Shown: positions 61,096 to 63,794 of the stretch, one piece after another
How positions within the stretch are numbered: position 1 is the stretch's first letter
Layout: every line of letters starts with the position of its first letter
Assembly (NCBI RefSeq): GCF_900105095.1
Contig: NZ_LT629743.1
Span: 682,001-746,000, forward strand
Direction of reading: 5' to 3'
DNA: 64,000 bases
Source of the DNA: Erythrobacter sp. HL-111
GTDB lineage: Bacteria; Pseudomonadota; Alphaproteobacteria; Sphingomonadales; Sphingomonadaceae
Made by a program: the position numbers and the translations under genes
Notes under the pieces: model-generated
Seen by the model: only the letters and a program-made list of their open reading frames with translations
Told to the model about the DNA's origin: nothing
Databases searched by the model: none

Positions 61096-61872
61096 ATGAA
61101 CGAGGTCCCCTCTTCCCCGCAATTGCAGCGCCTCCTCGCGATCATGGCGCGGCTGCGCGATCCGCAGTCTGGATGCGAATGGGACCTCGCGCAGGACTTT
61201 GCCAGCATCGCGCCCTATACGATCGAGGAAGCCTACGAGGTCGCCGACGCGATCGAACGCGGCGACATGGTCGAGCTCAGGGACGAACTCGGCGATCTGC
61301 TGCTCCAGGTCGTCTTTCACGCCCGCATGGCCGAGGAAGCCGGCCTGTTCGCCTTCGACGACGTTGCCCGCTCGATCAGCGACAAGATGGAGGCGCGCCA
61401 CCCGCACATCTTCGGCGGCGAAGGCGGCACGATGGGCGAAACCCGCTGGGAGAACCTCAAGCAGGCCGAACGCGCGGAGAAGGGCATGGCCAGCGCGCTC
61501 GACGGGGTCGCGCTCGCCCTGCCGGCGCTCATGCGCGCGCAGAAACTGCAGAAACGCGCTGCCCGCACCGGGTTCGACTGGCCCGATCCGAAGGGGTCCG
61601 AAGCCAAGATCATCGAGGAAATAGAGGAACTTAACACCGCTTCTTCGCAGGAGGACAAGGTCGAGGAAGCGGGCGACCTGCTCTTCGCCGCGGTCAATTT
61701 CGTCCGCGCCCACGGGATCGCCGCGGAAGACGCCCTGCGCGCTGCCAATGCCAAGTTCGAACGCCGCTTCCGGGCGATGGAATCGAGGGCCGGGGACGCC
61801 TTCGCGGAGCTATCGCTCGACCAGCAGGAAGCTCTCTGGCAGGAGGTCAAGCGGGACGAGGAAACCGTTTGA
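61096..61872 (+). CDS. mazG: Nucleoside triphosphate pyrophosphohydrolase MazG
   Basis: The 258-residue all-alpha NTP pyrophosphatase hydrolyses NTPs to NMPs and may affect (p)ppGpp levels and clear damaged nucleotides. Two MazG modules are visible. The first has LRDPQSGCEWDLAQDF, YTIEEAYEVADAIE and LRDELGDLLLQVVFHARMAEE, with the E-E-x2-E and E-x2-D metal-binding pattern. The second has EEIEELNTASSQEDKVEEAGDLLFAAVNF. The catalytic metal site is intact. It is convergent with hflX; the two stops are two bases apart. An AT-rich palindrome lies just upstream. Confidence 0.95.
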   Translation: MNEVPSSPQLQRLLAIMARLRDPQSGCEWDLAQDFASIAPYTIEEAYEVADAIERGDMVELRDELGDLLLQVVFHARMAEEAGLFAFDDVARSISDKMEARHPHIFGGEGGTMGETRWENLKQAERAEKGMASALDGVALALPALMRAQKLQKRAARTGFDWPDPKGSEAKIIEEIEELNTASSQEDKVEEAGDLLFAAVNFVRAHGIAAEDALRAANAKFERRFRAMESRAGDAFAELSLDQQEALWQEVKRDEETV

Positions 61873-61874
61873 AT

Positions 61875-63179
61875 TCAGGTGTCCAGAGTCTCGTATTGAC
61901 CCAGTTCCTTGGGATTGAGCCGGACCGTCACGCGCTTCATCGGACCGTCCGCGCCCTCGCCCGCGTCTTCCTCCTCCAGGACGTCGCCATGCGCGTGGAG
62001 CCAAGCCATGCGCCGCCCGTCGCTCACGGGGAGGGTGATGGTCACCTCCTTCGCCTGCGCCGTCAGCATCGCGCCGATCCGTCCCTCCAGCGCGGCGATG
62101 CCCGTCCCGCTCGCCGCGGAAAGCAGCACCGCCCCCTGCGTCTCGGCCGCCTCGGCGAGTTCCGCGCGGCGTTCGGGGGGAAGGAGATCGGCCTTGTTCC
62201 ACACTTCGAGGATGGGGATTTCCCCCGCCCCGGTTTCGGGATCCACCACGCCGAGATCGCCGAGCACTTCCATCACCTGCTTCTTCTGCGCCGCATTGGC
62301 CGGGTTGGCGATGTCGCGCACGTGGCAGATCAGGTCGGCGCCGGTCACCTCCTCCAGCGTCGCGCGGAACGCGGCGACGAGCTGCGTCGGCAGGTCCGAG
62401 ATGAACCCCACCGTGTCGGACAGGATCGCCTTTTCCACCCCCGGCAGCGCGATCGCGCGCATCGTCGGATCGAGCGTGGCGAACAGCAGGTCCTCTGCCA
62501 TCACGTCCGCGCCGGTCAGGCGATTGAACAGGGTCGATTTCCCCGCATTCGTGTAGCCGACGAGGGCGATCACCGGCCAGGGCGCCCTTCCCCGCCGCTC
62601 GCGGTGGAGCGCGCGGGTCTTGCGCACCTGTTCGAGTTCGCGCCGCAGCCGCGCCATGCGCTGGCCGATCATCCGGCGGTCGGCCTCGATCTGGGTTTCC
62701 CCCGGACCGCCGAGGAAGCCGAAGCCGCCGCGCTGGCGTTCGAGGTGGGTCCAGCTCCGCACGAGCCGCGACTGCTGGTAGTCGAGATGGGCGAGTTCGA
62801 CCTGCAGCCGCCCTTCCGCGGTCGCCGCGCGTTCGCCGAAGATCTCGAGGATCAGCCCGGTGCGGTCGATCACCTTGCGTTTCAGCTTCTCCTCGAGATT
62901 GCGCTGCTGGATCGCGCTCAGCGCTCCGTCGACGATCACGAGTTCGGCCTCGTACAGCTCGCACCAGTCGGCGATGCGCTGGACCTGGCCCGAACCGAAC
63001 AGGGTGTTGGGCTGCATCTGGCGCACGGGCAGGATTTCCGAATGGGCGATCACCACGCCGATCGCCAGAGCCAGCCCTTCGGCCTCCTCCAGTCGCTCGC
63101 GCGCGTCGAGGTCGTAGGTGAAGCTGCGGATATCCGGGCACAGCACAAGCGCCCGCGCGCCGCGCGTCACCTCATCCAT
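61875..63179 (-). CDS. hflX: GTPase HflX
   Basis: The 434-residue ribosome-associated GTPase splits stalled or heat-damaged ribosomes. The N-terminal HflX domain includes VRQMQPNTLFGSGQVQRIA and ELVIVDGALSAIQQRNLEE. The linker RGGFGFLGGPGETQIEADRR is the glycine-rich HflX motif. G domain motifs are G1 ALVGYTNAGKSTLFNRL, G3 LSDTVGFISDLP and G4 EVWNKADLL. It lies 24 nt after hfq in the same orientation, the classical hfq-hflX pair. A two-codon-longer start is not available. Confidence 0.96.
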   Translation of the reverse strand: MDEVTRGARALVLCPDIRSFTYDLDARERLEEAEGLALAIGVVIAHSEILPVRQMQPNTLFGSGQVQRIADWCELYEAELVIVDGALSAIQQRNLEEKLKRKVIDRTGLILEIFGERAATAEGRLQVELAHLDYQQSRLVRSWTHLERQRGGFGFLGGPGETQIEADRRMIGQRMARLRRELEQVRKTRALHRERRGRAPWPVIALVGYTNAGKSTLFNRLTGADVMAEDLLFATLDPTMRAIALPGVEKAILSDTVGFISDLPTQLVAAFRATLEEVTGADLICHVRDIANPANAAQKKQVMEVLGDLGVVDPETGAGEIPILEVWNKADLLPPERRAELAEAAETQGAVLLSAASGTGIAALEGRIGAMLTAQAKEVTITLPVSDGRRMAWLHAHGDVLEEEDAGEGADGPMKRVTVRLNPKELGQYETLDT

Positions 63180-63203
63180 CAGGTCGTCGTCGAAACTCAG
63201 CCG

Positions 63204-63794
63204 CTATGCCTCTTCGTCATCCTCGGACCCGTCATCATAGGGTTCGCTTTCCAGTCCGGCATCATCTTCCTCATCCTCGGTCAGGTCAACCGGGCTCGCG
63301 GGCTGGATGGTCGAGACGGCGTGCTTGTAGGCCAGTTGCACCGCGCCGTCGCGTTCGAGCAGCATGCAGAACAGGTCATAGGCCGCGATCCGCCCCTGCA
63401 GCATGACCCCGTTGACGAGGAACATGGTGACCTGGACATTGGCCTCGCTCACGCGGCTGAGGAACACGTCCTGCAGCAGGCGCTGTTTGGGGTTGCCCGC
63501 GCGGCTGGCGAACTGGCTCGCATCGATGTTCTGCCCCGGCATGATGGTGGAAACCGCGTGCTTGTAGACCAACTGGGACTGACCGTCGCGCCGCAGCAGG
63601 ATCGAGAAATTGTCGAACCAGGTGATGATGCCCTGCAGCTTGACGCCCTTGACGAGGAACATCGTCACCGGGGTCTTGTTGCGGCGCAGCAGGTTTAGGA
63701 ACGCGTCCTGCAGGCTGCCGGACTGGCGCGGCGTGCCCGGGCCGGGCTGTCCCTGCGGCCGGGGGCGCGGAGAGAGAGTTCGCCCGTTCGACAT
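63204..63794 (-). CDS. hfq: Tandem-domain RNA chaperone Hfq (two Sm folds in one chain)
   Basis: The 196-residue protein carries two complete Hfq/Sm domains instead of one. Domain 1 (about 25-86) has [36 protein letters not shown] and [12 protein letters not shown]. Domain 2 (about 105-165) has [36 protein letters not shown] and [12 protein letters not shown]. Both keep the L-Q-D and Y-K-H signatures; domain 2 loses rim arginines and the distal-face lysine. An N-terminal Pro/Arg/Gly tail and an acidic C-terminal tail (EDEEDDAG and EDDEEA) flank them. The ATG at 63794 has AGGAGC 9 nt upstream. Such a chain could form a trimeric pseudo-hexamer. Known Hfq proteins have about 70-100 residues and are homohexamers. 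Confidence 0.95.

Follow-up and report, generated by a model that had tools for sequence, protein, structure and literature searches.

How is an Hfq ring built when a single chain already carries two Hfq domains? The question is raised by a gene in the 64,000-nucleotide stretch of Erythrobacter sp. HL-111 DNA analysed here (the window; contig NZ_LT629743.1, positions 682,001 to 746,000). According to PMC6561178, the Hfq cores solved so far are hexamers. The sequence-only reading of the window had described an unbroken chain with two entire Hfq domains, which might close a ring with chemically different positions. The features concerned are as follows.

63204..63794, minus strand: hfq, encoding a two-domain (D1-D2) Hfq of 196 amino acids; ATG at 63794; two PF17209 matches and a match to NF010691.
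63723..63794, minus strand: N-terminal extension, residues 1-24, basic and proline-rich, with the motif RTLSPRP; net charge +4.
63537..63719, minus strand: D1, a canonical Hfq domain, residues 26-86; rim R37, R38 and K40; Lys49 and Lys52.
63480..63536, minus strand: linker between D1 and D2, residues 87-105.
63300..63479, minus strand: D2, an Hfq domain, residues 106-165; rim S116, E117 and N119; Asn128 and Met131.
63207..63299, minus strand: C-terminal tail, residues 166-196; acidic, with a net charge of -16.
61875..63179, minus strand: hflX (GTPase), 24 bases downstream of hfq, named from sequence.

The hfq frame runs without an internal stop to a stop codon ending at 63204, and an AGGAG sequence lies 8-12 bases 5′ of the ATG; the plus-strand translation of 63204-63794 is not Hfq and contains a stop. 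The Pfam Hfq model PF17209 matched two stretches of the protein with 183 bits in total (cut-off 27), and in the whole-genome profile search the two separate matches reached 104 and 83.4 bits. The protein belongs to the curated NCBIfam model NF010691 (PRK14091.1, ‘RNA chaperone Hfq’, 176 positions), scoring 292.7 bits against a cut-off of 270; model positions 20-175 align with residues 25-179, and the N-terminal extension and the end of the tail differ from the model in lying outside the match. Two domains in one chain were thus confirmed, and the domain limits and linker length first proposed were right to within a residue or two. No second Hfq gene was found in the source genome (one contig, 3.19 Mb).

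Genes resembling ntrB, ntrC, ntrY and ntrX lie upstream of hfq on the same strand, and a mazG-like gene lies beyond hflX on the opposite strand, all named from sequence. Such a neighbourhood is usual for hfq in alphaproteobacteria, and hfq and hflX are possibly in the same operon. A promoter scan gave a single match, inside the hfq gene, and no terminator. On the plus strand, an open frame of 609 codons (window positions 61869-63698) runs antisense to hflX and hfq and is probably a by-product of high-G+C coding DNA.

The architecture itself is known already. Yang 2010 (PMC2877685) reported two Sm-like domains in the Zymomonas mobilis Hfq ZMO0347 and in six other Sphingomonadales; we liken the window protein to ZMO0347 by description. 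The discussion of that paper asks whether the ring consists of three chains, so that the same idea for the window protein is plausible but not new. The available part of PMC2877685 names no domain-specific residues of the Zymomonas mobilis Hfq, and term searches of PMC7546472 and PMC5770649 gave nothing on how this Hfq assembles. The Zymomonas mobilis hfq has been linked to stress tolerance (PMC2877685, PMC9797736). Our search of open-licence PubMed Central, which leaves subscription journals mostly outside, found no structure, oligomer or RNA-binding measurement, domain-specific residues or single-origin analysis of a two-domain Hfq; it did not contradict the earlier remark that the RNA-binding behaviour of such a protein is undescribed. 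What is added here is the distribution of the fused form, tree support for a single origin, and two half-specific residues with almost no exceptions.

We examined 211 loci and found both domains in one uninterrupted frame in 144 of them, which represent 136 distinct proteins (the window gene is counted three times, and some genomes twice). Because the domains are uninterrupted in so many loci, the frame is not a product of chance or of a frameshift. A stop or frameshift between the domains had been named as what would undo the observation; that two genes were joined through sequencing error or annotation is so improbable as to be negligible, given one open frame in 136 distinct proteins from many assemblies and the existence of a curated model. 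Among the sources of the two-domain loci are assemblies whose names mark them as isolates, of Erythrobacter, Qipengyuania, Novosphingobium and other genera.

Sun, Zhulin and Wartell reportedly surveyed the distribution of Hfq in 2002. In our order-level draw of 296 genomes, 213 belonged to the window's family, and 202 of these had two Hfq matches and 11 had one. The other 83 genomes, from other families of the order, had one match (76) or none (six), and the last had, besides its first match, a partial one on a separate contig. Another draw, of 397 genomes from the window's family, gave 338 with two matches, 47 with one (one of them at a contig end), nine with none and three assembly oddities; the two draws of family genomes overlap, and their counts are not additive. 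Two matches meant one chain at the fetched loci, with all 144 two-domain loci in one frame. Among the named relatives with the two-domain form are Erythrobacter, Qipengyuania, Porphyrobacter, Altererythrobacter, Croceibacterium, Tsuneonella and Novosphingobium, and database proteins named Sphingosinicella have two Hfq domains as well. When the class was searched with NF010691, 5 of 385 genomes exceeded the cut-off, all from the window's family, and no fused pair was found outside this family among 398 genomes of the phylum. The fused form is nearly universal in one family, apparently Sphingomonadaceae. The initial remark that a double Hfq occurs in at least one sphingomonad was right but understated.

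Several candidates were rejected. Seven non-family genomes with two matches in the phylum search had them on different contigs or far apart, as did G001, G354 and G601, the two matches of G601 being fragments at the ends of contigs; G661 had one Hfq match only. Within the window's family, the match of G1262 lies at a contig end, so that the contig may lack its second domain; in G1020 a single contig has a one-domain match close to either end; and two of the 397 genomes (G1214 and G1229) have at least three matches, the extra ones on other contigs. Separate Hfq genes occur in five genomes of another family, f221, which we take to be Burkholderia-like. Burkholderia-type genomes have two Hfq genes, hfq and hfq2, and thus two Hfq domains per genome as here, but in separate genes. 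Among 235 listed database proteins, five have three Hfq domains (P0006, P0007, P0022, P0041 and P0043). These chains, of 241-248 amino acids, come from contigs of 791-1621 bases and have one member each, and by eye they seem to switch between D1 and D2 within shared stretches. Given the short contigs and the switching, they are as likely to be assembly chimeras as products of unequal crossing-over and were not accepted as three-domain Hfqs; if they are real, two such chains could close a ring.

The origin of the duplication was approached with two trees, both quick searches with SH-aLRT support only. In the rpoB tree, which covers 29 of 30 genomes (G002 had no rpoB match), 14 two-domain genomes fell into one clade (SH-aLRT 100) that excludes the eight single-domain genomes of the window's family. 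In the tree of single domains (66 columns), 28 D2 rows grouped together (support 99), as did 28 D1 rows (91). Both trees are explained by one duplication without a loss in any of the genomes read, and they favour a single tandem duplication and fusion inside the family. The mapping across Sphingomonadales that had been suggested therefore places the two-domain form in one family and favours one origin. D2 shares a one-residue insertion, relative to E. coli, with alphaproteobacterial relatives in the alignment, which fits a local duplication. Reversion to one domain was considered and rejected for the 11 one-match family genomes of the order-level draw: as fetched, all 11 carry Asn28 and hence look never duplicated.

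We then compared the two halves, numbering residues as in E. coli Hfq, in which Lys49/Lys52 of the window's D1 and Asn128/Met131 of its D2 are positions 28/31. Counts refer to the 133 two-domain loci outside genus g12, with 66 single-domain loci for comparison. Q8, F25, G29, Q33, Q52, Y55, K56, H57 and T61 are kept in both halves at all 133 loci, and F42 is kept in every D1 and in 132 of the 133 D2; in the window protein, both halves have the proximal pocket and the YKHA motif (Q8, F42, Y55, K56 and H57). From these conserved sites we infer that the window Hfq would bind RNA and anneal small RNAs to mRNAs. Purifying selection acts on D2 as on D1, with median dN/dS of 0.100 and 0.087, respectively (26 disjoint pairs). 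It is conceivable that D1 alone forms a ring and that D2, excluded from it, serves as an additional domain for binding RNA or protein, since D1 of the window protein is nearer to single-domain Hfqs (median identity 71%) than D2 is (56%). The retention of the D2 pocket residues and a constraint about equal to that on D1 make this very improbable.

Superimposed on this shared core are differences that separate the halves, bearing out the expectation of chemically different positions. Position 28 is Lys in D1 at 133 of 133 loci and Asn in D2 and in all 66 single-domain Hfqs, while position 31 is Met in every D2 and Lys in D1 and in the single-domain forms. The pattern is the same in one representative from each of 51 genus labels and holds in 228 of the 230 two-domain proteins listed from the database. 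Rim positions 16, 17 and 19 are all basic in every single-domain Hfq (66/66) and every D1 (133/133), the window's included, but in no D2 (0/133), and 35 of the 133 D2 rims have no basic residue at all. Among the two-domain proteins listed from the database, D2 keeps two of the three basic rim residues in 93 of 230 and all three in five; the division between tail and rim, strong in the lineage of the window, is thus less marked in others. An acidic tail, which ordinary Hfqs have on each subunit, follows D2 alone: its net charge is -3 or below in 132 of the 133 two-domain loci, against a median net charge of 0 for the linker. Single-domain relatives have acidic tails too (median -3 to -4), so an acidic tail as such is not special to the doubles. 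The window protein's tail exceeds the usual in both length and acidity; the charges of its residues 166-196 sum to -16, and over a slightly shorter stretch the doubles have a median of -6 and range down to -21. Ahead of D1, 107 of 142 double-Hfq frames have a conserved RTLSARP/RTLSPRP-like motif, which occurs in none of 67 single-Hfq frames.

Genus g12 (L164-L171, and also L242-L247) comprises small genomes of 2.1-2.9 Mb with a fast-evolving two-domain Hfq that has low model scores, changes at otherwise invariant sites and, in three of eight sequences, shorter linkers. In these eight sequences D1 Lys28 is found in 8, D1 Lys31 in 5 and D2 Met31 in 6, and five keep the entire 28/31 pattern.

What these differences could mean is suggested by work on single-domain Hfqs. 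The closest solved relative of D1 by score is the Hfq of Caulobacter crescentus (PDB 6gwk, 104.8 bits). In that protein, acidic tail tips contact the basic rim residues R18 and K19 of the adjacent subunit (PMC6561178), and the rim patch is required for annealing (PMC6561178; for E. coli, PMC5606850). On the distal face, K31 is accessible (PMC5606850); the backbone of position 31 touches RNA in Pseudomonas Hfq, and position 28 adjoins the neighbouring pockets (PMC8121710, PMC10628458). A distal-face role of 28 and 31 in the window protein would thus be read across from other Hfqs, in which the cited contacts are largely through backbone or water (PMC8121710, PMC10628458).

Borrowing the rim and acidic-tail mechanism from Caulobacter, we propose that three chains close one six-position ring, D1-D2-D1-D2-D1-D2, in which the rim used for annealing comes from D1 and the regulatory tail from D2, and we put the probability of this reading at about 0.6. 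Each of the six positions would retain its proximal pocket, which binds uridine, and most of the distal pocket, which binds adenine. D1 would contribute the basic patch on the rim, which accelerates RNA annealing, together with the distal-face lysines 28 and 31, and D2, having lost Lys31 and part or all of its rim patch, would carry the sole acidic tail. Both neighbours of each D2 would be D1, hence three tails would lie beside three rims; single-domain Hfq, such as the homohexamer of Caulobacter (PMC6561178), has by contrast six tails and six rims. With D2 between two D1, the lost parts would be complementary: the tail belongs to the half that lacks a rim patch, and in the half with such a patch a linker stands where a tail would be. 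The make-up of the ring, the pairing of tails with rims and any effect on RNA are inferred here.

Other arrangements of the same chain were weighed. Since each half is a complete Hfq domain, six chains could instead assemble into a D1 ring stacked on a D2 ring, each homomeric, with the linkers holding them together, and the gap of 13-16 residues between the HMM envelopes in 139 of 144 two-domain loci might span either arrangement. We consider stacking improbable: within a protein, D1 and D2 share about 53% identity (median of 133) and keep their core residues, which should present no obvious bar to mixing, and a linked neighbour would be at a higher local concentration. Structure prediction bears on the fold of the halves. 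AlphaFold2 gave one good model of five for the window protein (mean pLDDT 78.4, pTM 0.67; about 88-91 across residues 31-90, the D1 region), the other four having mean pLDDT of 36.0-44.9, and fold searches with the model recovered the Hfq fold in both halves. No solved two-domain chain was present among the 35 matching solved sequences, all of at most 114 amino acids, or among the best 50 matches of each fold search, one of which covers D2 only.

A mixed ring of three chains could also have arisen by drift, with the fusion fixed by constructive neutral evolution, D2 simply released from rim and lysine contacts that were redundant, the D1/D2 differences neutral and the function that of an ordinary hexamer. 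The D2 rim residues are variable and have been lost to differing degrees, as this account would have it, and PMC12262471 notes that E. coli K31A had mild regulatory effects in earlier work. We nevertheless regard it as rather unlikely, since D1 Lys28 and D2 Met31 are constant over 51 genus labels, where neutral positions would drift, and the same source found that K31A reduced the captured RNA pairs almost four-fold, R16A leaving nearly none. Given such effects, losing either residue from three of the six positions should have consequences unless something compensates for it. In the proposed alternating ring, the added Lys28 of D1 perhaps compensates for the losses in D2. A fuller version, for which we would not give even odds, is a natural, genetically fixed three-fold ring in which the D1 rim anneals and Lys28 adds distal grip, the three tails of D2, itself without Lys31 and the rim, gate three rims, and the distal face reads ARN repeats with a strength that alternates around the ring; in most of the family the small-RNA network would then depend on it.

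The half-specific residues, the distribution and the single origin together make the alternating ring directly testable. In a homohexamer, any Hfq mutation alters six sites together. In a natural ring with two kinds of position, point changes in one gene would show how many rims, tails and distal sites are needed, and would also reveal which of them must be neighbours. Eukaryotic Sm/LSm heteroheptamers similarly have unlike Sm subunits in their ring (PMC2877685), but there from seven separate chains, where here one gene and a six-position ring are expected. If the proposal is true, a homomeric Sm ring became pseudo-heteromeric once in this family, at a point placed on a tree, and its unlike positions would be comparable to the subunits of Sm/LSm rings.
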